A program made the position numbers and the translations under genes. A DNA stretch of 56,014 nt from Methylobacterium sp. (GTDB lineage Bacteria > Pseudomonadota > Alphaproteobacteria > Rhizobiales > Beijerinckiaceae). Position 1 is the first letter of the stretch; each line of letters opens with the position of its first letter. The DNA is taken from the NCBI RefSeq assembly GCF_019750675.1, contig NZ_JAIEOF010000164.1:1-56014 (forward strand), given 5' to 3'. The notes beneath the pieces are model-generated. The model ran no database searches. It was not told where the DNA came from and worked only from the letters and a program-made list of their open reading frames with translations. This document shows, piece by piece, positions 5,099-27,577 of the stretch.

Positions 5099-5899
5099 TC
5101 AGCCGCCGAACAGGCCGAGCACGGTCCGCCGCAGGGGATTGGCCGGATCGGAGAGCAGTCGCAGCGCCATCAGGCACGCGATCGTCACGAGAAGCGGGCG
5201 GATCAACCGGGCCCCCATCCGGATCGCGAGGCGCGAGCCGATCTGCGCCCCGAGAAAGGCGCCGACCGCCATCGTCAGGCCGATCGCCCAGACCACGTGA
5301 CCGCCGATCGCGAAGAGGGCGAGGCTGCCGAGATTACTCGCAGCGTTGGCGAGCTTGGTATGGGCGGTACCCTTCACCACGCCGAGGCCCAGCAGGGTCA
5401 CGAAACCGATCATGTAGAACGCACCGGCGCCGGGACCGAACACGCCATCGTAGAAACCGACCGCCGGGGCCCATGTCAGGGCGAACCAGTTCGGCGTCAT
5501 CCGCGCGGCCGCGTCCTCGTTGCTCATGCGCTTGGCGGTAGCGAAGTAGATGGCGATCGCGACGAGCAGGATCGGCACCGCGGCGTCCAGCACGGCGCGC
5601 GGCAGCAGGCTGACGCAGAGCGCGCCCGCGATCGAGGCGCAGCCGGCGCTCACCGCGATCTTCCAGGCATCCGGCCAGTGGATCAGGCGGCGCCGGGCGA
5701 AGGCGAGGGTGGAGGAGATCGCTCCGGCGCTGCCCTGAAGCTTGTTCGTCGCGATCGCCGCCACGGGATCGAGCCCCGCGAGCAGCAGGGCCGGTACCGT
5801 GAGCAGGCCGCCGCCGCCCGCGATCGCGTCGACGCAGCCGGCCGCGACGGCCATCGCGAACAGACCCGCGATCAGGCCGATATCCACCCCGAAGATCAT
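5099..5899 (-). CDS. TSUP/TauE-SafE family membrane transporter (266 aa)
   Basis: Inner-membrane permease of the TauE/SafE (UPF0721, YfcA-like) family, members of which export sulfite, sulfoacetate or related small anions. The N-terminal helix carries the glycine-rich AIAGGGGLLTVPALLLAGLDP motif followed by AIATNKLQGSAGAISSTLAF, both diagnostic. The second repeat half has FYDGVFGPGAGAFYMIGFVTLLG and KLANAASNLGSLALF. About eight hydrophobic segments. Substrate cannot be deduced; there are no sulfur genes beside it. It is convergent with the hydratase gene at 3880. Confidence 0.88.
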   Translation of the reverse strand: MIFGVDIGLIAGLFAMAVAAGCVDAIAGGGGLLTVPALLLAGLDPVAAIATNKLQGSAGAISSTLAFARRRLIHWPDAWKIAVSAGCASIAGALCVSLLPRAVLDAAVPILLVAIAIYFATAKRMSNEDAAARMTPNWFALTWAPAVGFYDGVFGPGAGAFYMIGFVTLLGLGVVKGTAHTKLANAASNLGSLALFAIGGHVVWAIGLTMAVGAFLGAQIGSRLAIRMGARLIRPLLVTIACLMALRLLSDPANPLRRTVLGLFGG

Positions 5900-5976
5900 A
5901 CCGTCCTCACGTCATGGTCCAGTGAAGACCGACTGGAGGCGGGATGGAGGATGGGGGCGGGCGCCGGATCAGCGTC

Positions 5977-6549
5977 TCAGTTGCGGACGACGACCCGGGT
6001 GCCGACCTTGGCGCGATCGTAGAGGTCGACCACGTCCTTGTTCGTCATGCGGATGCAGCCCGAGGAAACGGCGGCGCCCATGGTCTCGGGCTCGTTCGAA
6101 CCGTGGATGCGGTAGAGCGACGAACCGAGGTAGAGGGCGCGGGCGCCGAGGGGGTTGTCCTGCCCTCCGGCCATGAAGCGCGGCAGGTCGGGCCGGCGGG
6201 CCAGCATCTGCGACGGCGGGCGCCAATCCGGCCATTCCTTCTTCATCGTCACGCGCTTCTCGCCGGACCAGGAGAAGCCCTGGCGGCCGACGCCGACGCC
6301 GTAGCGCACGGCCTGACCGCCGCCGAGCACGTAGTAGAGCCGGCGCTGGCTCGTCGAGACCACGATGGTGCCGGGCTTCTCGGCGCCCTTCCAGGCGACG
6401 GTCTCGCGCGGGATCGCCTGCTCCTTGAAGATGTTCATGAAGTCGGCGATCGGCCCGCTGTCGAACGGGTTTCCGGCGAAGGCCGGGCCGGTCGATCCGG
6501 TGAGGGCCGCCGCCAGGGCGGCTGCGGCGAGAACGCGGCGCGTCTGCAT
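5977..6549 (-). CDS. L,D-transpeptidase, YkuD domain (190 aa)
   Basis: Periplasmic enzyme that makes 3-3 crosslinks in peptidoglycan or attaches proteins to it. A signal peptide (MQTRRVLAAAALAAALTG, ending near FAG) is followed by a YkuD domain: IVVSTSQRRLYYVLGGGQAVRYGVGVG, then LYRIHGSNEPETMGAAVSSGCIRM, with the catalytic His and Cys of the HG...S.GC.R motif. The ATG at 6549 was preferred to 6567 because GGAGGACAGACC lies just before it. Single gene, divergent to the membrane protein at 6821. Alphaproteobacteria usually carry many such paralogues. Confidence 0.92.
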   Translation of the reverse strand: MQTRRVLAAAALAAALTGSTGPAFAGNPFDSGPIADFMNIFKEQAIPRETVAWKGAEKPGTIVVSTSQRRLYYVLGGGQAVRYGVGVGRQGFSWSGEKRVTMKKEWPDWRPPSQMLARRPDLPRFMAGGQDNPLGARALYLGSSLYRIHGSNEPETMGAAVSSGCIRMTNKDVVDLYDRAKVGTRVVVRN

Positions 6550-13290: not shown

Positions 13291-15111
13291 TCAGTACACG
13301 CGCGCCTTCGGCTCGATGTACTGGATCTCGTTCGACATCGTGTAGGTGTGGACCGGGCGGTAATCGATGCTGACCTGCTTGGAGGTGTCATCCATCCAGG
13401 CCAGCGTGTGCTTCATCCACTCCTTGTCGTCGCGATCCGGGAAGTCCTCGCGGGCATGCGCGCCGCGGCTTTCCTTGCGATTGGCGGCGGATTCCATGGT
13501 GACGACGGCCTGACCGATCAGGTTGTCGAATTCCAGCGTCTCGAGGAGATCGGTGTTCCAGATCAGCGAGCGGTCGTTGACGTGGATGTCGGGAATGCCG
13601 GCGGCGACCTTGTGGATGAGGGACTTGCCCTCTTCCAGCACCTCGCCGGTGCGGAACACGGCGCAGTTGTTCTGCATCGTCTTCTGCATCTCGGCGCGAA
13701 GCTGCGCCGTCGGTGTGCCGCCATTGGCGTAGCGGAAGCGATCGAGGCGCCCGAGGGCCTTGTCGGCGGAATCCTTCGGAAGCTCCATCTGGCGGGCGCC
13801 CGCCTCGACGATCTCGGCGCAGCGCAGGCCCGCCGCGCGGCCGAAGACCACGAGGTCGATCAGCGAGTTCGAGCCGAGGCGGTTGGCTCCGTGCACCGAG
13901 ACGCAGGCCGCCTCGCCCAGTGCCATCAGGCCCGGCACCACCGTGTCGGGGTTGCCGTTCTTCAGGGTCAGCACCTCGCCGTGATAGTTCGTCGGGATGC
14001 CGCCCATGTTGTAGTGGACCGTCGGCAGCACCGGGATCGGCTCCTTGGTGACGTCGACGCCGGCGAAGATCTTGGCAGATTCCGAGATGCCCGGCAGGCG
14101 CTGGTGCAGGATCGCCGGGTCGAGATGGTCGAGATGCAGGTAGATGTGGTCGTTGGACTTGCCGACGCCCCGTCCGGCCCGGATCTCCATGGTCATCGAG
14201 CGGGAGACCACGTCGCGCGAGGCGAGGTCCTTGGCGCTCGGAGCGTAGCGCTCCATGAAGCGCTCACCCTCGGAATTGGTCAGGTAGCCACCCTCGCCCC
14301 GCGCCCCCTCGGTGATGAGGCAGCCGGCGCCGTAGATGCCGGTGGGGTGGAACTGCACGAACTCCATGTCCTGCAGGGGCAGGCCGGCGCGCAGAACCAT
14401 GGCGTTGCCGTCGCCGGTGCAGGTGTGGGCGGAGGTGGCCGAGAAGTACGAGCGGCCGTAGCCGCCGGTGGCCAAAATCGTCATCTGCGCGCGGAAGCGG
14501 TGGATCTCGCCTGAGGCCTGGTCGATGGCGATGACGCCGAGGCAGCGGCCCTCCTCGTCCATGATGAGGTCGAGGGCGAAGTACTCGATGAAGAAATTGG
14601 TGTGGTTCTTCACCGCCTGCCCGTAGAGGGTGTGCAGCATGGCGTGGCCGGTGCGGTCGGCCGCCGCGCAGGTGCGCTGGGCGGTGCCCTTGCCGTAATC
14701 GGTGGTCATGCCGCCGAACGGGCGCTGGTAGATCTTGCCCTCTTCCGTGCGCGAGAACGGCACGCCCCAGTGCTCAAGCTCGTAGACCGCGGCGGGCGCG
14801 TTGCGCACGAGGTACTCGATCGCGTCCTGGTCGCCGAGCCAGTCGGACCCCTTCACGGTGTCGTACATGTGCCAGCGCCAGTCGTCCGGGCCCATGTTGC
14901 CGAGCGAGGCCGAGATGCCGCCCTGCGCCGCCACGGTGTGCGAGCGAGTGGGAAACACCTTCGAGATGCAGGCGGTGCGCAGGCCGGCCTGCGAGCAGCC
15001 CACCGTGGCGCGCAGGCCCGCGCCGCCGGCGCCCACCACCACCACGTCGAAGGTATGGTCGTTGATCGTGTAGGCGGGAGCGCCGTTGCCGTTGGTTCCG
15101 TTGGTGGCCAT
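13291..15111 (-). CDS. sdhA: Succinate dehydrogenase flavoprotein subunit (606 aa)
   Basis: Catalytic subunit oxidising succinate to fumarate. An FAD dinucleotide fold ([18 protein letters not shown]) begins near residue 24, and the covalent-FAD His is in [20 protein letters not shown]. The substrate and capping regions include [26 protein letters not shown] and the active-site Arg stretch [14 protein letters not shown]. The C-terminus carries [24 protein letters not shown]. It lies between sdhD and sdhB in a four-gene operon transcribed leftwards. Normal length. Confidence 0.97.
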
Positions 15112-15140
15112 GGGCAGATCCTTCGGGTTCGGGGGGCGGG

Positions 15141-15554
15141 TCAGACGAGCTTGCCGAGGCCGACGCGTAGGATCGCGTACAGGCAGGCCACGGCGACGAT
15201 GACCGCGTAGAAATTGTTGGCGAGCAGGCTCAAGAGCTTGAGCGTCTTGTCATGGACGTAGTCCTCGATGATGACCTGCATCCCGATCCTCATATGGGCC
15301 GTGACCGAGATCACGGCGAGGATCAGGATCAGCGCCACCACCGGGTGCGACATCAGCGCGATGGCCTCCGGGTAGGGCCGGTTCGCCATCAGCGCGACGA
15401 TGACCACGAAGGCCAGCATCAGCGGCGCGTTGGCGGCGGCGGTCAGGCGCTGGGTCCAGAAATGGCCAGCGCCGTGGCCCGAGGCCCCGAGGCCCTTCAC
15501 CCGGGCGCGGGGCGTGCGCATGGTGACGTTCGTGTTCTGGCGGTTGTCGGCCAT
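15141..15554 (-). CDS. sdhD: Succinate dehydrogenase membrane anchor subunit (137 aa)
   Basis: Membrane anchor that with SdhC binds heme b and forms the quinone site. A polar N-terminus (to about residue 30) is followed by three hydrophobic helices. The second to third region has [21 protein letters not shown], which holds the heme-ligand His and the conserved ED.VH motif. It follows sdhC by 12 bases and precedes sdhA by 29 bases. Length and layout match alphaproteobacterial SdhD. Confidence 0.93.
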
Positions 15555-15566
15555 CGGTCCGTCTCC

Positions 15567-15968
15567 TCAGCGCAGGGTCAGGGCGAGCGCCCAGATCAGG
15601 ACGGTCAGGATGACGGAGCCGATCAGGGTCGCGCGGGCGAGGCCCATGCGCTGGGCGCGGTCGAAGCCGTAGCCGAGATCCCAGATGAAGTGGCGCAAGC
15701 CCCCCAGCATGTGGTGCATCAGGATCCAGGTGTAGACGAACAGCACCAGGCGGCCGACGATCGAGCCGAAGAACCACGAGACGGTGCCGTAGGCGGACGG
15801 GCCGGAGGCGAGGGCCACCAGCCAGATCGCCACCAGAGCCGAGCCGCCGTAGAGGGCGGTGCCGGTGATGCGGTGAAACACCGACATCGCCATGGTCCAG
15901 GTCCACCGATAGATCTGGAGGTGGGGCGAGAGCGGCTGGGCGACCGTGGGACGGACGGTTGGAGCCAT
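15567..15968 (-). CDS. sdhC: Succinate dehydrogenase cytochrome b556 subunit (133 aa)
   Basis: First gene of the operon. RPLSPHLQIYRW-type N-terminus (PLSPHLQIYRWTWTMAMSVFHRITG) with the quinone-site Ser and Arg, and LMHHMLGGLRHFIWDLG with the heme His in helix 2. Three membrane helices. I start it at the ATG at 15968 (MAPTVRPTV), which gives the family N-terminus; the track's 16058 start would add 30 residues with no family match and would cover the upstream hairpin. A GAGGA lies 13 bases ahead. Confidence 0.93.
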   Translation of the reverse strand: MAPTVRPTVAQPLSPHLQIYRWTWTMAMSVFHRITGTALYGGSALVAIWLVALASGPSAYGTVSWFFGSIVGRLVLFVYTWILMHHMLGGLRHFIWDLGYGFDRAQRMGLARATLIGSVILTVLIWALALTLR

Positions 15969-15998
15969 CGTGCTGAAGGTCCTCGACTGGGCGGCACC

Positions 15999-16034
15999 AT
16001 CCAATTTTGAGATGGGCCTCAGAAAAATTTGGAT
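15999..16034 (-). promoter_or_regulatory. Inverted repeat in the sdh leader
   Basis: ATCCAATTTTGAG ... CTCAGAAAAATTTGGAT forms an imperfect AT-rich hairpin around GATGGGC, 31-66 bases upstream of the sdhC start. AT-rich dyads are rare in this GC-rich sequence. It may be an operator or an RNA structure in the leader. Confidence 0.3.
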
Positions 16035-16134
16035 CGTCTCTAAAGTGCTAGCGGGCACGCGCCAATGCGCAACCCCGCCTTGCCGCAGCGCACATGCGAC
16101 ACAGGGGCCGAATCGTCATTCCCTTCCTTCCGCC

Positions 16135-17457
16135 TCATGGCAGCCATCCGAGCGCACGCCACCAGAGATAATCCAGGGGTGCGACGACGAGGAGGGAGGC
16201 AAGCCCGGTCGCGAGGGTCAGCTTGGTCGCTGCCCGCAGCGGCACCTTGCCGAGATCCACCGCGAGGACGATCGGCGGGGCCTGATAGGGCAGGAACAGG
16301 GTCGAGTAGCCGACTACCTGGATCATCACCACCGCCATGAGGTCGAGGCCGCTCGCGCGCGCCATCTCACCGGCGAGCGCCGTGTAGAGCGCGGGGGCAC
16401 CGTTCGCGGTGACGGCAAGCGTGAGGATCGCCGCCAGTCCTGTCAAAATTGCGAAGTTGTAGCCCGGCGCATCCGGTGTCAGCGGCGCGACGTGAAGCAG
16501 GGCATGGCCGAGGCGAGCGCCGAGACCGGTCTCGTTCACGGTGGCGACGAGGCCGAGCAGGGCGGCGACGTAGAAGCAGGTGCGCAGGTTCACCGCCCCG
16601 AAGGCTTCGGCCGGCAGCACGCCGATGCGGGGCATCAGGCAGAGGATCGCGGCGACGAGGCCGACCCAGGCCGGGGCGATGCCGTGCAGGCTGTCGGTGA
16701 CCCAGAGGCCAAGGGTACCGGCCAGGATCACCGCGAGGCGGCGCGCCTCCGGCCGCAGGGGCTCCTTCGCGAGGGCGGCCCCGTTCTCGCCATGGTCGAG
16801 CCGATCCGGGAACAGCCGGACGATCGCCAGGACGAGGAGGACGCCCTTCACCAGGGCCAGCACCGGCGCGTGCAGCAGGAGGTAGGGCAGATAGGCGATG
16901 TGGAGGCCGTACTGCGTCTCGGCGGTGCCGGCCATGACGAGGTTCGGCACGTTCGCGGGTAGGATCGCGGCGGAGAGGATCGGCGTGGCAAGACCCACCG
17001 CGAGCACCGCCCCGTGCCGGCCCGGCCGGCCGGCACCGAGGCCGAATGCGTCGCAGAGGGCGAGCACCACGGGTACAAGCAGGGCGATGCGGCCGAGGTT
17101 CGACGGCATCACGAAGGCGACGGCGAAGGACAAGGCGACGATGCCGGCGACGAAGGCGGGGTAGGAGGCCGAGAGGTGCCCCGACAGACTTCGCGCCAGA
17201 CGGTCGCCGAGGCCCGAGCGCGTCATGGCGAGGCCCACCACCATGCCGCTGAGCACCAGCCAGAAGGCCGAGGAGGCGAAGCCCGAGAACACGGTCGCGG
17301 CGGGCGCGAGGCGAAACAACATCGCCCCCGCGAAGAACAGCATCGCGGTGACGATCTCGGCGATCAGCCCGCTCGCCCAAAGCCCCATGCAGAGCACGAG
17401 CAGGAGCGCGGTCACCACGACCGTCGCCTCCCCGCCCATCAACGCCCCTGCCGGCAT
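16135..17457 (-). CDS. SLC13/DASS-type anion permease (440 aa)
   Basis: Polytopic inner-membrane transporter with about 11-12 hydrophobic segments. Family-like stretches are [23 protein letters not shown] in the first half, the discontinuous helix [20 protein letters not shown] (SNxx-type sodium/carboxylate motif) and [13 protein letters not shown], with a second-half [12 protein letters not shown] region. DASS members carry dicarboxylates, citrate or sulfate, usually with sodium; the substrate here is unknown. Start at 17457, or Met7 at 17439. It is downstream of the sdh promoter region on the same strand but separated from it, so it is likely its own unit. Confidence 0.75.
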
Positions 17458-17533
17458 CGCGTGATTCCATCCCGCTGGTTCGCCGGGACAATGGTCCTAC
17501 CTTGGAGCGGTTCGCAATTCGGACTTTGCAGCG

Positions 17534-17560
17534 TGAGCCTTCGCCGACGACGAAGGCTCA
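17534..17560 (-). terminator. Hairpin at the end of the glycosyltransferase gene
   Basis: TGAGCCTTCG / CGAAGGCTCA form a perfect 10-base stem with a 7-base loop. The minus-strand stop TGA (17560-17558) is part of the stem. No T run follows, so termination is plausible but unproven. Confidence 0.45.
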
Positions 17561-19783
17561 GAACCGGGCCGGATCGAGCTCGAAGGTCGGCGGCAGGGCC
17601 TCGAACCATTCGCCGTAATAGGGATCGCGGGGGAGCTTCGCCGCCCAGCGATCGCGAAAGCGCTGATGCTCGTCCGGGTCGACGGTGCGGGCGCGGTTGC
17701 GGCTCTCGTAATGGTAGAGGCTCGCCTGTGCGCAGTAGACGCTGCGCAGGCCCCGCTCCCGCAGCCGCAGGCAGAGGTCGATGTCGTTGTAATTGACGGC
17801 AAAGCCCTCGTCGAACCCGCCGACGGCCTCGAACTCCGCTCGCCGCACCATCAGGCAGGCACCAGTCACCGCGAGGTAGTTGCGGTTGCCGACGGTGGAG
17901 AAATAGTGCCCCGGATCGTCGCCGGGATAACCGCGCCGGACATGGTCGGGCGTCGCGTCGACGATCGACACGCCGGCATGCTGGATCTCGCCGGTCTCGA
18001 AAAGGAGCTTCGGCGCGACCGCGCCGACGCCGGGGATCTGGAGTTGCGCCAACAGTGCCTCGATCCAGTCGGGGCTGATCACCGCGATGTCGTCATTGAG
18101 AAAGACCAGGACTGCGCCGCGCGCGGCCCGTGCGCCGAGGTTCATCTTGGCGGCCACGTTGAAGACCGGCTCGGACCAGGTCACGCGCTCGGCGCCGTGG
18201 CGCTCCAGGGCCGCCAGGGTGCCCGGCCGCAGGTCGCCGTTGTCGACCACCACGAACGCGATGCGCGGATAGGTGCTGAGAGCGGCGACGCTGTCGAGGC
18301 AGGCGGCCAGCAGATCGACCGTGCGGCCGCCGACGGTGCTGTCGCGGCCGGCGGTCGGGATCACGATCGAGACGAGGGGGCGGTCGGTCAGCTTTCGCCG
18401 CAACGCGAAGCAGCCCTTGAACGCGGTGGAACGGGCGAAGTCGAGTTCGCCCGTGCGCCGGGCCCGGTCCTCCAGGCCGCGGATCGCCGCCGCGATGACG
18501 TAGTCCTTGTTGTCCATCGTCTGGGCGGTGGAGCCGGGAATGGCGCGCCAGTGGTAGAGCACCTTCGGCACGTGGACGACGTTGCGGACGTGCTCGGTGT
18601 AGCGCAGGGCGAAATCGTAATCCTGGGCGCCGTTGCAGGCGTCGCGAAACCCGCCGATCCGCTCCACGATGTCCATGCGGTAGAGCGCGAGGTGCGCCGT
18701 GTACATGCAGGCCTCGAGGGCCTCGGGCGACCAGTCCGGCTTGAAGAACGGCTCGTAGCGCACCCCGTCGATGGAGATCTTGTCCTCGTCCGAATAGATG
18801 AAGTCGACGCTCTCGTCGGCGTTCAGGATGCGGACGAACTCGTAGAGCGCGTTGTCGGGGATCGCGTCGTCGTGGTCCATCAGGGTCATGTAGCGGCCGG
18901 TAGCCAGGCCCATGGCGTCGTTGGAGGCGGCCGAGATCCGGCCGTTGCTCCGGCGGCGGTGGAGCTTGATCCGGGGATCGGCCGCCGCGTAGGCCTGGAG
19001 CATGGGCCAGACATGGGGCGCCGACGAGTTGTCGTCGCAGAGGCAGAGTTCCCAATCCTCGTAGGCCTGTGCCCGTACGGAGGCGATGGCCGCCTCGAGC
19101 CAGCGCTTGGGCGTATCGTAGACCGGCATGATGATGGAGATGCGCGGCCGGAACGGATAACCGGCGACCTCGGCGCGCATCGCCGCGACCGAGAGCCGGG
19201 CGGGCGCCTCCACGGTCTCGATCCAGGCCATGTAGGACGCCGGCACCGGCCGCGGCCGGGCGCTTGCGAAGAAGTCCTGCCAGAGTGCGGCGAGCCCCCG
19301 CTCGCGGGCGAGCGCCTTGATGCGAGCGAGGAGCGGACCCGGCCGGCGCTCGGCCTCCGGCAGGCGCGCGAGGAGTCGGCGCGCGATCTCCGCCACCGCG
19401 CCGACGCGGCCAAGGTAAGTCAACTCGACATGGCCGAGGCGGAACCGGCCGACGCCGCTCAGGGGATCGAGGCGCAGGCCCCGGACGCGGCGCGGCAGCC
19501 GAACGAGGTTGTCGATGCCGTTCGCGTCGAGTTCGAGGGGAACGGTCAGGGTCTCGCGAAAGCCCTTGCCGTCATCGACGTAGAGCAGGGGCGTCAGCTT
19601 CGCCCGGTCGACGACTTTGAGGTCTGCCCGCAGGCGCACCCAGCCGCCGCGATGGCGCTTGCGGCCCTGCGGCGGCCACAGGCGGAAGTTCGGGTCGGTG
19701 CCCGTCGCGCGCCACGCATCGGGTGCCCCATCCGCCTCGATCTGGGTGGCGGGGTCAAGACGGCAGCGAAGGGTACGACGCAA
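17558..19783 (-). CDS. Family 2 glycosyltransferase with two catalytic domains (741 aa)
   Basis: Probably builds a surface polysaccharide or O-antigen. An N-terminal beta-rich region of about 200 residues is followed by a GT-A fold beginning PRISIIMPVYDTPKRWLEAA, with LCDDNSS and the metal motif TLMDHDDAIP. A second GT-A domain starts about residue 465 (RPLVSIVIPTAGRDS), with VVVDNGD, VFLNDDIAVI and GGFDEGFAVNYNDIDLCLRLRERG. Two-domain GT2 proteins of this size resemble rhamnan or O-chain synthases. There is no membrane helix. Neighbours are unrelated, so sugar donor and acceptor remain unknown. Confidence 0.88.
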   Translation of the reverse strand: MRRTLRCRLDPATQIEADGAPDAWRATGTDPNFRLWPPQGRKRHRGGWVRLRADLKVVDRAKLTPLLYVDDGKGFRETLTVPLELDANGIDNLVRLPRRVRGLRLDPLSGVGRFRLGHVELTYLGRVGAVAEIARRLLARLPEAERRPGPLLARIKALARERGLAALWQDFFASARPRPVPASYMAWIETVEAPARLSVAAMRAEVAGYPFRPRISIIMPVYDTPKRWLEAAIASVRAQAYEDWELCLCDDNSSAPHVWPMLQAYAAADPRIKLHRRRSNGRISAASNDAMGLATGRYMTLMDHDDAIPDNALYEFVRILNADESVDFIYSDEDKISIDGVRYEPFFKPDWSPEALEACMYTAHLALYRMDIVERIGGFRDACNGAQDYDFALRYTEHVRNVVHVPKVLYHWRAIPGSTAQTMDNKDYVIAAAIRGLEDRARRTGELDFARSTAFKGCFALRRKLTDRPLVSIVIPTAGRDSTVGGRTVDLLAACLDSVAALSTYPRIAFVVVDNGDLRPGTLAALERHGAERVTWSEPVFNVAAKMNLGARAARGAVLVFLNDDIAVISPDWIEALLAQLQIPGVGAVAPKLLFETGEIQHAGVSIVDATPDHVRRGYPGDDPGHYFSTVGNRNYLAVTGACLMVRRAEFEAVGGFDEGFAVNYNDIDLCLRLRERGLRSVYCAQASLYHYESRNRARTVDPDEHQRFRDRWAAKLPRDPYYGEWFEALPPTFELDPARF

Positions 19784-19897
19784 ACCCGGATCCTCTCGGG
19801 GGCCGGCGCGCGCGGCGCGCGGCTCATCGGCAGATCGCCCGACCTGCCGAGGCGAGGTTTAGGGCAAGCCCGCTTCCCCCCGCAAGGTCGGCGCAGA

Positions 19898-21703
19898 TCA
19901 GGGCTGGTTGGCGGCGAGGTAGGCGCGCCAGCCCCCGTGATGGGTGATCTCCGGGGCGCCCGCCACCGCGTGCGCCTCGCACAGGAAGCCGGAGGCCGTC
20001 TCGCCATCGGCCAGGGTGATCTTGCCGATGCCGAGGGGGGCGGGGATCGCGGCGGCGAAGCGCCCGAAGCTCGCCGGATCGAGGCTCCAGACCTCGACCT
20101 CCAGGCCCGGCCCGGGATGGCCGGGCTCGCGCACGAGGCCGGGTTTGGCCGGCACCGTGCCGGGCAGGGCGAAGAGGCGGTAATCGGCCGCCGTGCGGGT
20201 GGCCCGCAGGAAGCGCGCGCCGAGATCCTGGAGTTGGTGGTTGAGGGCGAGGCCCGTGAGGTGGGCGCCCACCACCACGAGCGGAATCGCATCGGGCTCG
20301 GCCGCCGGCACGAGGCTCGCCGCCGGCAGGGCGGCGGCCCGGTCGAGTCCCATGCCGCCCGCGAGCGCACGGTGCAGGGCGTCGGCCCATGGACTGAGCG
20401 CCTCGTCCGTGAAGCCCGGCGCCACCAGCATCACGCCCGCCGGCAGCCCGTCCCGGCGAAATCCCGCCGGAACCGCGATGGCGGCCATGCCGAGCAGGTT
20501 GGCGAAGTTCGTGTAGCGCCCAAAATGACTGTTGCGGAGGATAGGTTCCGCCTGCATCTCGGCCACCGAATAGGTGGTGGGCGAGGTGGGCAGCAACAGG
20601 ATGTCGAGTTCGCCCAGGATCATGTCCGTGCGGCGCTTGCACGCCTCAAAGGCGTAGCGCCCCCTGAACGCGTCGACGGCGCTGTAGCGCTTGGCGGACT
20701 CGACGATGGCGCGGACGCTCGGGTCCATGGCGGCCGCGTGATCCGCGTGGAACGTCTCGATGGCCGCCAGCCGCTCGGCCACCCAGGGGCCGTCGTAGAG
20801 CAAGGCAGCGATCTCGCGGAACGGGGCATAGTCAAACGGCACCGCCACGCCGCCAAGCCCTCCCAGCCGGGCGATGGCGGCGTCGTAGAGCGCCGCGGTC
20901 TCGGCATCGCCGTAGAACTCGCGCTCGGCGGGCGCCAGCACGCCGAAGCGCAGACCTGTGGCCGGCAGCGCCCGCGGAACCGCCATCCGCGAATAGGGAT
21001 CGGCGGGATCGAACCCCTCCGCCACGCGGCGCACCGCGATGCCATCGCCCACGGTGGCGGAAAACACCGTGATGCAGTCGAGGCTGCGGCAGGCGGGGAC
21101 GAGGCCGGTGGTGCTGAGCGCCCCCGGGGTTGGCTTGATGCCCACGATGTTGTTGAAGGCCGCCGGCACGCGGCCGGACCCGGCCGTATCGGTGCCGAGA
21201 CTGAAGCAGGCGAGCCCGGCCGCCACCGCCACGGCCGAACCGGAGCTCGACCCACCGGAGACGTGCTCGGCGCTGAACACGCTGCGCGGCGCCCCGTAGG
21301 GCGAGCGCGTGCCGTTGAGACCGGTGGCGAACTGGTCGAGATTGGTCTTGCCCGTCACTAAGGCACCGGCCGCCTTCAGGCGCGCCACCACGACCGCGTC
21401 CGCCTCGGGCGTGTAAGCGAAGGCCGGGCAAGCGGCGGTCGTGGGCAAGCCCGCCACGTCGATGTTGTCCTTGACCGCGAAGGGCAGGCCCCACAGCGGC
21501 AGCGAATTCGGGACCGGATGGCGCTCGATGAGGTCGCGGGCGGCCGCGACGAGGTCGTCCCGGTTCACCATCGTGATGAAGATCGCCGGATCGGCGGAGG
21601 TCGCCATGCGGTCCGCGACGATGCCGGCCACGGCAACGGGATCGAGGGCCCCGGACGCGTAGGCCGCGCGCAGGGTCGCGGCATCGAGGATGGTGGGCAG
21701 CAT
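19898..21703 (-). CDS. atzF: Allophanate hydrolase (601 aa)
   Basis: Hydrolyses allophanate to ammonia and CO2, the second step of the urea carboxylase route and the last step of s-triazine breakdown. The amidase signature domain (residues 1 to about 440) has LPFAVKDNIDVAGLPTTAAC with the catalytic Lys, GGSSSGSAVAVAAGLACFSLG and TDTAGSGRVPAAFNNIVGIKP with the Ser-cisSer pair. The C-terminal allophanate-hydrolase domain (about 460-601) contains VVVGAHLTGLALNHQL. GAGGAG precedes the ATG. No urea carboxylase gene is adjacent; ureD lies 170 bases upstream on the same strand, so both urea routes meet here. Confidence 0.93.
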   Translation of the reverse strand: MLPTILDAATLRAAYASGALDPVAVAGIVADRMATSADPAIFITMVNRDDLVAAARDLIERHPVPNSLPLWGLPFAVKDNIDVAGLPTTAACPAFAYTPEADAVVVARLKAAGALVTGKTNLDQFATGLNGTRSPYGAPRSVFSAEHVSGGSSSGSAVAVAAGLACFSLGTDTAGSGRVPAAFNNIVGIKPTPGALSTTGLVPACRSLDCITVFSATVGDGIAVRRVAEGFDPADPYSRMAVPRALPATGLRFGVLAPAEREFYGDAETAALYDAAIARLGGLGGVAVPFDYAPFREIAALLYDGPWVAERLAAIETFHADHAAAMDPSVRAIVESAKRYSAVDAFRGRYAFEACKRRTDMILGELDILLLPTSPTTYSVAEMQAEPILRNSHFGRYTNFANLLGMAAIAVPAGFRRDGLPAGVMLVAPGFTDEALSPWADALHRALAGGMGLDRAAALPAASLVPAAEPDAIPLVVVGAHLTGLALNHQLQDLGARFLRATRTAADYRLFALPGTVPAKPGLVREPGHPGPGLEVEVWSLDPASFGRFAAAIPAPLGIGKITLADGETASGFLCEAHAVAGAPEITHHGGWRAYLAANQP

Positions 21704-21873
21704 CGGTACGGGTCTCCTCGATCGGCGCGGCGGGCTTTTCGCCGTGCCGCGTGCGGCCCGCGGCGGCGGGTTTCGATGGTCCGGCTAGAGGTCGGGGCGC
21801 CCCTGCGGCCGAGGTTGCATCCTCCGTGCCGACGCGGCGGCCGAGCGCGCGGTGACGGGCGTTCGCGACACCC

Positions 21874-22740
21874 TCAGGCCTGCCAGACCCGCGGGAGCGG
21901 CTGCCCGCGATAGGCGGTCAGGAGACGCTGTGCCAGCGTCCGGAGCGCATCCGGATCGGCGGCGAGGCACCGCACGACGAGATGACCGTTCCAGGCGGAG
22001 GCCGCCGCCGTGACGCCGGCCATCGCGACGTCGTCGAGGATCGCGCGGGCCTGCTCCAGGCGGCCCTCCGCCTCGGGGGAGACGTCGAGCAGGGTCGCCA
22101 TGGCCCGGGCGCCTCCGCCGATCGCCGCGCGCGCGAGCTGGGCCGAGAGATCGCCGTCGAGGCGCACGGAATCCGCATAGACCAGACGCCCTCCGCGCCG
22201 GATGCGCCAGATATCGGTGAGATGCCCCCGCGTGATCGGCTCCCGGCGCGCCGTGCGCCCGAACGTGACGGCCTCGAAAGCGAGGAGCCGCGCATCCGGC
22301 GCCAGATCCGCCGAGAATCGCCGCTCCAGGGTGGCCTGGTCGAACAGGATCGTCTCCTGCGGCAGGAAGGCGAGGCGCCCCCCGGCCGCGAGGGTGGTGC
22401 ACGTCGTCAGGCGGCTGACCGGGCCATCGGAGCGGTAGATCTTCTCGGCGGCCGTCGTCGTCAGGACGAGATCGGCACCGGCCCCGACTTCGACCGTCAC
22501 GTCGAAGGTGTCGCCGCAGGCGATGCCCCCGGCCGTGTTGAGGAGGACGGCCTCGCAGGGACCGCGCATCCGGCGCGGCAGGCGCAGGCGGGCCGGGCCC
22601 GCCTCCGCGATGTCGCGGATGCGGGTGTCGTGGCCGTCCGCGCAGTCGACACTGAGGTGAATGCGCCCGCGCGAGCGCTGACGCTCGGGCGCCGCGACGG
22701 GCAGGGGCGAACGGTCCGGATCGAGCAAGACGGCGCTCAC
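21874..22740 (-). CDS. ureD: Urease accessory protein UreD (288 aa)
   Basis: Scaffold that binds apo-urease with UreF and UreG for nickel insertion. Family landmarks are LPRRMRGPCEAVLLNTAGGIACGDTF, LTTTAAEKIYRS, LAFLPQETILFDQATLERRF and LAFEAVTFGRTARREPI. The start is the GTG at 22740, giving a GTGA overlap with the stop of the sulfurtransferase gene (translational coupling). The track's ATG at 22782 lies inside that gene and has no support. No ureABC, ureE, ureF or ureG gene lies within this window, so it is detached from the usual urease operon. Confidence 0.9.
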   Translation of the reverse strand: MSAVLLDPDRSPLPVAAPERQRSRGRIHLSVDCADGHDTRIRDIAEAGPARLRLPRRMRGPCEAVLLNTAGGIACGDTFDVTVEVGAGADLVLTTTAAEKIYRSDGPVSRLTTCTTLAAGGRLAFLPQETILFDQATLERRFSADLAPDARLLAFEAVTFGRTARREPITRGHLTDIWRIRRGGRLVYADSVRLDGDLSAQLARAAIGGGARAMATLLDVSPEAEGRLEQARAILDDVAMAGVTAAASAWNGHLVVRCLAADPDALRTLAQRLLTAYRGQPLPRVWQA

Positions 22741-23585
22741 GCCGGACCGGTCGCCACGGGACGGGCGGGATCGGCCCCCCATTCCGACCAGGAGCCGTCG
22801 TAGAGCGCGCGCTGAGGGCGTCCCAGGGTCTCCAGGGCCAGACCGACGATCGCCGCGGTGACGCCGGATCCGCAGGTTGTGACCACGGGCCGGTTCACGT
22901 CGACGCCGGCTTCGGCGAAGACCGCCCGCAGGGCCTCCGGGTCCTTCAGGCGTCCCTCGGATTGAAGCGCGGCGTAATGGACGTTGCGGGCGCCCGGCAT
23001 GTGGCCGGGGCGGACGCCGGGACGAGGCTCCGCCTCCTCGCCGCGGAAGCGCGGCGCGGAGCGAGCGTCCACCAGTTGCGCGGTGCCGGTCTCGAGGGCG
23101 CGTGCGACGTCGCCGGCATCGGCCACGGCGCCGTGGTCGAGGCGGGCGGTGAAGTGACGCCGGGTACGCGGGCGCCCCTCGCCCTCCTCCACGGGGTAGC
23201 CGGCCGCGATCCAGGCCGGCAGGCCGCCCTCGAGGATCTCGACGTCGCGCACCCCGAAGGTCTGCAGCATCCAGCGCACCCGCGGCGCCGAGAACAGGCC
23301 CATCCCGTCATAGACCACGATGTGCGCCCCGTCGCCGATGCCCAGCGCCCGCATGCGGGACGCGAAGACCTCCGGGCGCGGAAGCGTGTGGGGGAGGGGC
23401 GAGGTCTCATCGCTCATCGTGTCGATGTCGAAGCGGATCGCGCCGGGGATGTGCCCGGCCAGGTACTCGCCGCGCGCGTCGCGACCCTGGGCCGGCAGGT
23501 ACCAGGACGCGTCGAGGATCACGATGTCGGGTGCGCCGAGGCGGGCGTGGAGCCATTCGGCCGTGACAAAGGGCGTCGTCGCCAT
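22737..23585 (-). CDS. sseA: 3-mercaptopyruvate sulfurtransferase (282 aa)
   Basis: Transfers sulfur from 3-mercaptopyruvate to thiophilic acceptors. There are two rhodanese domains: an inactive one (residues about 8-130, with LDASWYLPAQGRDARGEYLAGHIPGA) and a catalytic one ending VVTTCGSGVTAAIVGLAL, whose CGSGVT loop is the mercaptopyruvate type rather than the thiosulfate type. RSAPRFRGEEAEPRPGVRPGHMPGARNV is the typical interdomain segment. The start is the ATG at 23585 (MATTPFVTAEWL), the family N-terminus, not 23630. Its stop overlaps ureD. Confidence 0.93.
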   Translation of the reverse strand: MATTPFVTAEWLHARLGAPDIVILDASWYLPAQGRDARGEYLAGHIPGAIRFDIDTMSDETSPLPHTLPRPEVFASRMRALGIGDGAHIVVYDGMGLFSAPRVRWMLQTFGVRDVEILEGGLPAWIAAGYPVEEGEGRPRTRRHFTARLDHGAVADAGDVARALETGTAQLVDARSAPRFRGEEAEPRPGVRPGHMPGARNVHYAALQSEGRLKDPEALRAVFAEAGVDVNRPVVTTCGSGVTAAIVGLALETLGRPQRALYDGSWSEWGADPARPVATGPA

Positions 23586-23707
23586 GGTGTTCTCTGTTCG
23601 ATGGGCCGGGGGGGACTCCGGCCGGGACACGCCCTCGGGCGCTCACGAACCGGCACCAAACCACATCCGGACAGGTGTTGCACGCCCGGCTGGCGCGCCG
23701 ACCAACC

Positions 23708-24250: not shown

Positions 24251-24505
24251 TTGACCCCGCGCGAGACCTATCACATCGAAGTGCTCGCCTCGGAGGACGA
24301 GGCCGGCGCGCGCGGCGAGGACCCGGTGAGCCAGCGCATCTCCGTGCGGACCGGCTCCGTCGAGGCCGCCAAGGAGCGGGCCCTCTCGGTGTTCGCCCGG
24401 GCCCGCGCGCCGCAGCGCTCGGGCGCGCCGGCCGAGGCGGTGCGGGTGATCGACGGCGCCGGCACGGAAGTGTTCCGCTGGAGCCGGTTCGACGAGCGGA
24501 CCTGA
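24251..24505 (+). CDS. Hypothetical protein (84 aa)
   Basis: Not recognised. Small soluble alpha/beta-like protein: YHIEVLASEDE, then QRISVRTGSVEAAKERALSVFARAR, then EAVRVIDGAGTEVFRWSRFDE. The strand-helix-strand order with a long Ala/Arg helix suggests one compact domain. The start is a TTG at 24251 with AGGA 7 bases upstream; no ATG or GTG is available near the right place. It is 16 bases from the next gene, so the two are probably cotranscribed. Confidence 0.65.
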   Translation: MTPRETYHIEVLASEDEAGARGEDPVSQRISVRTGSVEAAKERALSVFARARAPQRSGAPAEAVRVIDGAGTEVFRWSRFDERT

Positions 24506-24521
24506 GGGATCGAGACCCGGC

Positions 24522-24878
24522 ATGCGGCGCGCCCTGATCCTTCCGACTCTGGTTCTCGTCTTCGCGGCCCTGTTCCTGCGCAGCTACACCGTGCCGCCGG
24601 CCCCCGACCGCCGCGGCGGCACGGTGGTCTCGCTGAACTGGCCGAACCGCCCCCTGTTCGGCAGCCCGCGCGGCGCGTGCCTCGATCTCGCGGAGGGCCA
24701 GCCGGTGATCGCCTGCCTGATCGCCTCCGTGGCGCAGGCGCGTCAGGACGGCATCCCCCTGCTGCAGCTCGGGTTCTGCGCCACCTGCTACGGGCTCTCG
24801 CAGCGCCTCGCCACCCTCGGGCGCGACGAGGCCGCGACCCGGGCGCGCCTCGCCGAGATCGGGCGCTTCGGCTGGTGA
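24522..24878 (+). CDS. Hypothetical exported or membrane-anchored protein (118 aa)
   Basis: Not recognised. The N-terminus MRRALILPTLVLVFAALFLRS is a signal anchor or signal peptide. The remainder contains four Cys, including a CATC pair in LGFCATCYGLSQRL and ones at GACLDL and IACLIAS, so periplasmic disulfides or metal binding are possible. Short gap to the preceding gene at 24251. No homologous neighbour gives a clue. Confidence 0.6.
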   Translation: MRRALILPTLVLVFAALFLRSYTVPPAPDRRGGTVVSLNWPNRPLFGSPRGACLDLAEGQPVIACLIASVAQARQDGIPLLQLGFCATCYGLSQRLATLGRDEAATRARLAEIGRFGW

Positions 24879-24953: not shown

Positions 24954-26162
24954 TCAGACCGGGTCGCCGGCGTCGGTTTGCCGGCGGGCGCGCAGGCGGT
25001 CGCGCCAGCCCTTGACCCGGACGTTGGCGGCGGCGCGCGCCCGCTCCAGGCGCGCGGCGAGGGGAAAGAGCGGATCGCCGCCCCGGGTTTCGACGAGGAT
25101 GTGGGCGAGGGCCAGGCGCTCGGTCCAGAAGGTCTCCGGCAGGGTGTAGTTCGGCGGCGCGCAGGAATCCGCGCTGGCGATCGCGGGGTCGGCGACGAGG
25201 TCCTGGGTGAGCTGGTGGAAGGCGAGGGCGCCGGGGGAATGCCGGGCGACCGACGCGTCGTAGGAAATCTTCAGGCTCCAGAGCCGCTTACCGGTGACGA
25301 AGCTGACCACCGCCGCCAGCGTGCGCCCGTCGCGGCGCAGGCGGTCGATCCGGACGTCGCCGCGGGCGCCGAAGGCCGCGATGGCCGCGCGCATCATCGC
25401 GGCCTGGCGGGGATCGTCAGCGATGGCGGTGCCGCGCCGCCCCTTCCAGCCGGCGCTCTCCAGGGCGATGTAGTCGTCGATGGCGGCGGGCAGGTCGGCC
25501 GGATCGCGGATCGTCTCGACGCTGACCGGCCCGTCCGCGTTGAGACGCTCCCAGGCTTGGCGCAGCTTGCGGCGCTTTCGGGACGAAAGATGCGCGAGGT
25601 ATGCAGTCCGCGCCGCGGAATCGCGCCCCGTCAGGTCGAGGAGGGCGCGCTCGTGCGCCCAGAACCGGGCGTGGCGGAGCCGGTTGCGGTCGAGCCAGCC
25701 GGAGAGGAGTTCGGCGAAGGGGCCTTGCGTGGGCACGTGGGTCAGCATCAGGCGCGGACCGATCAGGTGGCGCAGGCCGAGGAACAGGGCGTCGAGGGCG
25801 CGGGCCGGTTCGGCGGCGTCGAGGAGGGGCACCCCGAAGACTCCGAACTCGTGCATCCATCCCATCGTGAGGACGAGGGGCAGGCCCCAGCGCAGGCGCC
25901 TGACCCGCACCGGCCAGGCGCCGAGGAGATGCAGGCCCGGCTCCTCCGGCGCCCGGTCGCCCACCAGGGCCACCTGCACGCCGTGGCCGAAGGCGCCCGA
26001 GGCCGGCAGGGCGAAGTCGGGGTCGTAGAACAGGTTGTCGACGAGGGGCCGGCGGCTGAGGTCGCGCCAGGCCGCGATCCAGGGGGCGTTCGCCTCGAGG
26101 GGGCGCAGGGCGACCACGAGGCCGTCCGGCGTCACCACGCTGCGGGACCGGATCTGTCGCAT
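24954..26162 (-). CDS. GNAT-like acyltransferase, BioF2/CelD type (402 aa)
   Basis: Double-GNAT fold protein related to those that transfer acyl or aminoacyl groups in exopolysaccharide and peptidoglycan pathways. Family features: HLSSRKRRKLRQAWERL (the signature basic helix), IDDYIALESAGWKGRRGTAI with the conserved W.G, and LWSLKISYDASVARHSPGALAFHQL near the C-terminus. The start is the ATG at 26162, which overlaps the flippase stop by one base (TGATG); the track's upstream extension is a shadow. The tight coupling to a polysaccharide flippase suggests it decorates the transported glycan. Confidence 0.75.
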   Translation of the reverse strand: MRQIRSRSVVTPDGLVVALRPLEANAPWIAAWRDLSRRPLVDNLFYDPDFALPASGAFGHGVQVALVGDRAPEEPGLHLLGAWPVRVRRLRWGLPLVLTMGWMHEFGVFGVPLLDAAEPARALDALFLGLRHLIGPRLMLTHVPTQGPFAELLSGWLDRNRLRHARFWAHERALLDLTGRDSAARTAYLAHLSSRKRRKLRQAWERLNADGPVSVETIRDPADLPAAIDDYIALESAGWKGRRGTAIADDPRQAAMMRAAIAAFGARGDVRIDRLRRDGRTLAAVVSFVTGKRLWSLKISYDASVARHSPGALAFHQLTQDLVADPAIASADSCAPPNYTLPETFWTERLALAHILVETRGGDPLFPLAARLERARAAANVRVKGWRDRLRARRQTDAGDPV

Positions 26163-27577
26163 CAGGCGGCTCGCTTGAAGCGGCGGGCCGTGAGGTCGGC
26201 CACGCCGAGGATGTTGAAGGCCCAGCCCGTCGCGACCGAGACCACGGCGAGGCAGGCGAGCTTGAGGGCGAGGCCCGCGCGCGGATCGAGGGGCAGGCGG
26301 TCGAGGCCCGCCAGGATGAGGCCGCACAGGAGCGCGGCGCAGACGATGATCGCCACGTCCCGCACCGGCACCGGCATGCGGCTGCCGCCGCGCGAGCCGA
26401 ACAGGAACACGAGGCAGGCGAGGCCCTGGCCGACCGCCATGGCGAGCGCCGCTCCCTCGACGCCGTAGCGGGGCACCAGCACGGCCGAGAGGGCGCCGAT
26501 GGCGACCAGCAACGTCACCGAGGCCACCGCATCGAGGTGGCTCGTGGGCGTGAAGTAGATCACCTGTCCGAAGTAATAGGCGCGCAGCATCTGCAGGATG
26601 CTCGCGGTCACCAAGAGGGGCGCCACTCGCAGGGCCGTCTCACGGTAATCCGGCCCGAGCAGAATGCCGACGAGGACGTCGTCGAAGGACAGGAAGAACA
26701 CCGCCCCGAAGGCCGCGATCACCGTGAGGAGTCGGGCCGCGTCCTCCAGCACGGGCCGCGCGGCGGGCAGGCCCCCCTCCCGGGCCTCGCGCTTGGCGAT
26801 GGAGACCAGGGCGAGGGCGATGCTGTCGCCGAACACCACGAAGCTCTGGCGCAGGAAGTCGGCGAAGGCCCCGTAGGCGCCGAGTTCACCCACACCGATG
26901 CTGGCCCCGATGATGAGGCGGTCCAGGGTCTGCGCCAGGGCGGCGGCCGCGAAGGACAGCACCAGGGGCCAGCCATAGACCAGCAGGCGCCGGGCCTCGG
27001 CGCGGTCGCCCGGCCCGCGCAGCAGGGCCCGGATGGCGACGAGGGAGGGGATCGCCGCCAGCATGTTGGCGAGCGCCGTCGCCACCAGGAGCGCGACGGC
27101 CTCGCCCCCGCCGAGCAGAGCGGCGCTGCCGAGGCCGAGCACCAGCACGGACCGCAGCACGATGGAAAGGGCGACGGCGCTGACTTCGAGGCGGGTTCGG
27201 GCGATCTCGGCGGCCCCCTCGAAGGCCGTCATGCCGACGACCGCGACGAGGATGGCGGCGGCCGCGCGCGGGGCGATGAGACCCGCCATCGCCGCTCCGG
27301 CCGCGCCGAGGCCGGCCAGCAGCAGCATGCCGCCGAGGAGCCGGACCACCGTGCCGACCTGCAGCGCCGCCCGATCCTCGGCATAGAGGGCGAAGAACGA
27401 GAACTTCGGCCATTGGCAGGTGGCGCTGTAGAGCACCAGCGCCCAGGACAGGACCAGCAGGTAGAGACCGAAAACGTCGGTCGGCGCGAGGCGGGTGAAC
27501 ACCGCCAGGGCCGCCATGTTCAGGGCGGCGGCAAAGCCCCGCGAACCCACATAGGTCAGGGTGTGGCGCGCGATCAT
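26162..27577 (-). CDS. Polysaccharide/lipid-linked oligosaccharide flippase, MOP superfamily (471 aa)
   Basis: Integral membrane protein with about 12-14 hydrophobic helices, of the Wzx/polysaccharide transporter type that flips undecaprenyl-linked sugar units. The N-terminus MIARHTLTYVGSRGFAAALNMAALAVFTRLAPTDVFGLYLL is the typical opening, and QTLDRLIIGASIGVGELGAYG is the usual central motif. The ATG at 27577 was chosen because the 44 residues upstream in the track are not family-like. It ends overlapping the acyltransferase gene. Sugar substrate unknown; no polymerase lies beside it. Confidence 0.85.
   Translation of the reverse strand: MIARHTLTYVGSRGFAAALNMAALAVFTRLAPTDVFGLYLLVLSWALVLYSATCQWPKFSFFALYAEDRAALQVGTVVRLLGGMLLLAGLGAAGAAMAGLIAPRAAAAILVAVVGMTAFEGAAEIARTRLEVSAVALSIVLRSVLVLGLGSAALLGGGEAVALLVATALANMLAAIPSLVAIRALLRGPGDRAEARRLLVYGWPLVLSFAAAALAQTLDRLIIGASIGVGELGAYGAFADFLRQSFVVFGDSIALALVSIAKREAREGGLPAARPVLEDAARLLTVIAAFGAVFFLSFDDVLVGILLGPDYRETALRVAPLLVTASILQMLRAYYFGQVIYFTPTSHLDAVASVTLLVAIGALSAVLVPRYGVEGAALAMAVGQGLACLVFLFGSRGGSRMPVPVRDVAIIVCAALLCGLILAGLDRLPLDPRAGLALKLACLAVVSVATGWAFNILGVADLTARRFKRAA

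Follow-up and report, generated by a model that had tools for sequence, protein, structure and literature searches.

A detached ureD and an allophanate hydrolase gene apparently left behind by a guanidine operon share a composite locus in Methylobacterium

The window, by which is meant the whole stretch of 56,014 nucleotides of contig NZ_JAIEOF010000164.1 (contig C466 of a draft genome of 4.92 Mb in 469 contigs, assembly GCF_019750675.1), comes from a Methylobacterium sp. whose nearest named species by UreD identity (97%) is Methylobacterium goesingense. At issue is a locus on its minus strand where, as first noted from the sequence, a sulfurtransferase gene (sseA), the urease accessory gene ureD and the allophanate hydrolase gene atzF follow one another, with the atzF start 170 bp past the ureD stop. 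Urease subunit, UreF and urea carboxylase genes are absent from the window, as had also been said, and the UreC match of the genome is on contig C108 only. The features of the locus and of its flanks are these.

22740..23585, minus strand: sseA, 3-mercaptopyruvate sulfurtransferase of 282 amino acids (NCBIfam NF008557, 316.8 bits, cut-off 250; motif CGSGVTA)
21874..22743, minus strand: ureD, urease accessory protein (Pfam PF01774, 181 bits, gathering cut-off 27)
21704..21873, minus strand: ureD-atzF interval of 170 bp, with a relic of a carboxylase gene 3' end of about 50 nucleotides, 21704 to about 21758
19898..21703, minus strand: atzF, full-length allophanate hydrolase of 601 amino acids (TIGR02713, 774 bits, cut-off 511; C-terminal AH_C, PF21986, matched)
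17558..19783, minus strand: glycosyltransferase gene, the conserved flank on the atzF side and outside the unit (found in this position in Leaf117 and J-068 too, the latter without atzF)
24251..24878, plus strand: two small conserved open reading frames (ORFs) of 84 and 118 amino acids, a divergent flank that marks the sseA site and adjoins sseA across the clade

The amidase motifs of AtzF (GKTNLDQ, SGGSSSGSA and GTDTAGSGR, the Ser-cisSer-Lys signature) are intact when aligned with PDB 4gyr and 4cp8, and the ratios of nonsynonymous to synonymous substitution rates (dN/dS) indicate purifying selection on sseA, ureD and atzF.

Comparison with Methylobacterium sp. Leaf117 bears directly on the interval between ureD and atzF. 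The flanks there are those of the window, with sdh, a DASS transporter, the glycosyltransferase and atzF to one side and ureD, sseA, the small ORFs and a helicase to the other, and between atzF and ureD Leaf117 has an ABC transporter, a creatininase-like protein, GlnT, the carboxyguanidine deiminases CgdA and CgdB and a guanidine carboxylase, making the ureD-atzF distance about 10.9 kb as against the 170 bp of the window. By blastn, window positions 15001-21758 align unbroken to Leaf117, through atzF and on for 55 bases into the 3' end of the carboxylase gene, and positions 21880-23631 align to its ureD-sseA. Relic alignments that include the ribosome-binding region outscore all 500 shuffles in each of seven atzF-only species (7/7), and with the last 20 nucleotides excluded the relics of loci L118 and L121 still stand above 500/500 shuffles and that of L119 has p 0.002. 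Given the carboxylase 3'-end relic before the atzF of the window, the operon has therefore been deleted and atzF has stayed; to judge by gene order and alignment, atzF is the last gene of a deleted guanidine operon.

That the operon is for guanidine and not for urea follows from three features of the relatives' copies, namely their guanidine-I and/or guanidine-II riboswitches, their CgdA and CgdB, which match UAAP1/UAAP2 above cut-off, and their carboxylases, in which an Asp of the stretch DFTGD aligns with an Asn of yeast urea carboxylase. This column, picked from the alignment, we take to be the site at which a review distinguishes the two enzymes, and to be yeast Asn1330. According to that review guanidine carboxylases have Asp and urea carboxylases Asn, and the pathway runs from guanidine through carboxyguanidine and allophanate to ammonia (PMC12186494). 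Our literature search found no paper on a Methylobacterium with a guanidine carboxylase. In the genome from which the window comes a urea carboxylase was sought genome-wide, and no full-length match to TIGR02712 (urea/guanidine carboxylase) above cut-off was found; the TIGR02712 matches that do occur are partial, covering biotin-carboxylase and 5-oxoprolinase-type domains, and were rejected as urea carboxylase. Nor has the genome a CgdB ortholog, and the window has neither a guanidine riboswitch nor a remnant of one, including at a relaxed threshold around the genes. The original prediction of two urea-degrading routes side by side thus finds no support, there being no urea carboxylase in the genome and atzF coming from the deleted guanidine-carboxylase operon. 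A DUF1989 gene on G000:C237 was considered as CgdA/B and rejected, its scores with the UAAP models being far below the cut-offs; this single DUF1989 gene (5154-6131, L252) adjoins an RNase H-like gene and is conserved in most clade genomes, guanidine genes or not.

In the inner clade most species carry atzF alone, and in J-068 atzF is gone too, with the glycosyltransferase flank kept. A concatenated tree places Leaf117 with Leaf104/125/465 (100/100) and not with the goesingense side, as does the AtzF tree; short of a regain of the operon by Leaf117, a deletion sparing atzF would therefore have happened independently at least twice. Two further arrangements occur among the operon carriers. In both Leaf117 (L120:10872-11471) and Leaf91 (L069:8850-9386) the space between ureD and the guanidine transporter holds, in antisense, a gene for a regulator with a NikR_C domain, and when the Leaf117 protein is compared by eye with E. 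coli NikR, the nickel-site His-x-His seems to be retained and the Cys to have been replaced. In M. sp. 10 (L248, L122) a block of about a dozen kb stands between ureD-sseA and the guanidine operon, an arrangement that an inversion with a breakpoint beside ureD might have produced.

Quite why atzF should remain is addressed by genes elsewhere in the same genome. A biuret hydrolase, BiuH, is encoded on G000:C352 (419.7 bits, cut-off 370), with the triad of Asp, Lys and Cys visible in its sequence, and is 88% identical to the BiuH of J-090, in which atzF lies about 3 kb from biuH. There is also a second, TrtA-like hydrolase of about 52-55% identity to BiuH, whose relative in Leaf104 most resembles TrtA (6XIX), a triuret hydrolase of known structure. 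With the presence threshold for BiuH set at ≥80% in a count over 111 genomes of the genus, atzF is present in 33 of the 35 genomes with BiuH and in 45 of the 76 without it (Fisher p=1e-4), and among genomes that lack CgdB in 24/26 with BiuH and 31/61 without (p=2e-4), kinship being ignored in both. Within 16 clade genomes all 13 with BiuH or the TrtA-like protein have atzF, and none of the three without (0/3). The likely role of atzF is in the path from biuret through allophanate to ammonia, and so the nitrogen-scavenging unit of the original prediction likely stands for atzF, by way of biuret and triuret, and does not stand for urea. A second group of AtzF proteins, 50-57% identical, is found in 49 of the 111 genomes, and at the thresholds applied 26 of the 49 lack both BiuH and a carboxyguanidine deiminase. 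In four genomes (G044:C3, G045:C11, G046:C4 and G055:C8) ureC shares a contig with the TrtA-like gene, at a distance of roughly 25-30 kb.

That atzF is instead a decaying leftover with no present role is rather unlikely. The loss of its operon partners and riboswitch would fit such a fate, as would its disappearance from J-068 and others and the existence of two close species with atzF and without BiuH. However its dN/dS is 0.13-0.18 within the clade, among atzF-only species, and 0.13-0.16 for the window compared with other atzF-only species, and the gene is full length with its motifs intact, has been kept after at least two separate deletions and tracks the presence of BiuH or the TrtA-like protein. 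The deletion itself could also be read in the opposite direction, with the operon inserted between ureD and atzF in Leaf117 and the window in the ancestral state, as the prevalence of the atzF-only state in the inner clade might suggest. This is very improbable, because Leaf91 and E-045, which lie outside the inner clade, also have the first operon genes right after ureD, and in Leaf91 the whole operon could be traced to atzF as its last gene; moreover the carboxylase relics precede atzF in the atzF-only species and the AtzF of Leaf117 groups with that of its neighbours.

The ureD gene has a separate history. A genome-wide profile search gives the ureD of the window as the only UreD match in the genome, with dN/dS of 0.12-0.28, and the separate 3.3-kb contig C108 holds ureAB and the beginning of ureC, which is broken at the contig end, so that ureD (C466) does not adjoin ureAB-C. 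In the close relative J-078 (G001) a ureAB-ureC-ureE-ureF-ureG cluster lacks ureD, and the one ureD stands where it does in the window; all 16 of the clade genomes examined encode UreC elsewhere. UreF was not found in the fragmented draft, which is treated as an assembly gap because C108 breaks inside ureC and J-078 has UreE, UreF and UreG. The suggestion of a broken-up urease locus is thereby borne out, and the finding set beforehand as counting against it, an intact urease operon elsewhere that includes a ureD, was not made.

Among the named loci sseA is directly upstream of ureD in 16 Methylobacterium species, and these form one branch of the UreD tree (support 97/91). The helicase-h84-sseA site, h84 being the 84-amino-acid ORF, exists in further Methylobacterium genomes that have no ureD there (G005, G009, G016 and G018), and in Methylorubrum, Microvirga and others ureD heads ureAB; ureD has therefore moved to an existing sseA site. 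On these comparisons ureD entered the older helicase-h84-sseA site a single time, within a clade that counts at least 16 Methylobacterium species. On the mesophilicum/fujisawaense side another set of Methylobacterium loci (L130-L134, L136-L139, L142-L145, L147-L148, L150, L152-L153 and L155) likewise has ureD separated from ureAB, in a place other than beside sseA, and that the UreD tree keeps this set apart from the sseA set suggests a separate detachment. At L091:9260-9961 a single ORF (ureAB) encodes a fusion of the urease gamma and beta subunits. Literature titles and abstracts held nothing relevant on ureD placement in Methylobacterium.

At the junction the sseA TGA overlaps a possible ureD GTG start (22743) as GTGA, which had been noted at the outset and is indeed present in the window sequence, and only there, the eight further species of the immediate clade having no such GTG. 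In contrast a TTG 6-10 nucleotides past the sseA stop, followed by a conserved frame, is common to all nine species compared, and in the window this TTG is in frame four codons downstream of the GTG, 8 nucleotides after the stop. TTG is thus the likelier ureD start, and since the GTG is missing in eight species and the TTG common to all, the overlap is probably due to chance, with the tight sseA-ureD adjacency real and conserved. The coupled persulfide donor proposed for the pair loses its footing, as sseA occupies the same helicase-h84 site in relatives whose ureD is still part of the urease operon, and as the GTGA is not conserved; no support was found for a functional SseA-UreD link beyond adjacency. 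Least probable of all is a co-transcribed and functionally coupled sseA-ureD-atzF nitrogen unit in which SseA would assist urease maturation with sulfur or redox chemistry and AtzF would add another route for urea. The genes do share a strand, a tight sseA-ureD spacing across the clade and purifying selection, but other Methylobacterium have sseA at this site and no ureD, J-068 lacks atzF, in Leaf117 a whole guanidine operon takes the place of atzF, there is no urea carboxylase, and UreD is not known to require sulfur.

Overall the locus seems, with a probability of about 0.8, to be a composite of two rearrangements rather than one functional unit. In the ancestor of the goesingense/bullatum/gossipiicola group ureD would have left the urease operon and settled behind sseA. 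Between ureD and the glycosyltransferase gene a guanidine operon would once have stood, comprising the ABC transporter, creatininase-like protein, GlnT, a guanidine-II riboswitch, CgdA/CgdB, guanidine carboxylase and atzF, and the lineage of the window would then have lost all of it except atzF. Purifying selection would have kept atzF, most likely because BiuH and the TrtA-like protein, encoded at other loci, supply allophanate from biuret and triuret, which AtzF would split to CO2 and ammonia; gene content points to AtzF acting on BiuH-derived allophanate, and UreD presumably serves the distant urease in trans. It is about an even question whether independent deletions in several lineages, each cut just before an atzF already shared with biuret/triuret breakdown, amount to a gene handed between nitrogen pathways.

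Several points weigh against this account. The window's own scar is short, with p=0.55 against shuffles once the last 20 nucleotides are excluded, and the case for a scar is stronger in L118, L119 and L121. Leaf104 (G097) and G067 keep atzF with neither a BiuH at ≥80% nor a carboxyguanidine deiminase, Leaf104 having the TrtA-like protein only and G067 being scored for BiuH and deiminase only. The co-occurrence statistics for atzF and BiuH take no account of relatedness, and the state of the assembly, in 469 contigs with ureC truncated at a contig end and UreF missing, bears on what is said of the urease genes.

Four known systems each resemble the locus in part. The AtzF of the window is orthologous to, and in the same place as, the last gene of the guanidine-carboxylase (GC-CgdAB-AtzF) operon in Leaf117 and Leaf91, but the transporter, GlnT, CgdA, CgdB, carboxylase and riboswitch are wanting and atzF and a short scar remain. 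Set beside the urease operon (ureDABCEFG), the window has a normal UreD, the other genes being elsewhere and ureA-ureB fused, yet its ureD is alone behind sseA whereas that of Methylorubrum and Microvirga heads ureAB. The biuret/triuret pathway (TrtA-BiuH-AtzF) is matched by a BiuH above the curated cut-off and a TrtA-like protein, although atzF is at another locus than biuH and derives from a guanidine operon. Urea amidolyase (urea carboxylase/allophanate hydrolase) shares the AtzF domain type, but the genome has no urea carboxylase and the carboxylases of relatives carry the guanidine-type Asp. Apart from these, window positions 24954-26327 match the NCBIfam model of the BspF crotonyl transferase weakly (138.5 bits, far under the cut-off of 775).

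TrtA, BiuH and AtzF are in operons in both of the species described (PMC7948467), and in Rhizobium leguminosarum no atzF is close to biuH (PMC5806882); the locus described here offers one possible answer for the latter, in that an allophanate hydrolase gene taken over from guanidine metabolism can lie at a locus unrelated to biuH. An atzF beside a urease gene invites the misreading that two urea routes are present, and comparison shows the scar of a guanidine operon instead. The sister species, with the full operon, with atzF only or with nothing, offer a series for how shared enzymes survive the loss of an operon, and a ureD outside the urease operon can, in this group, persist and perhaps function.

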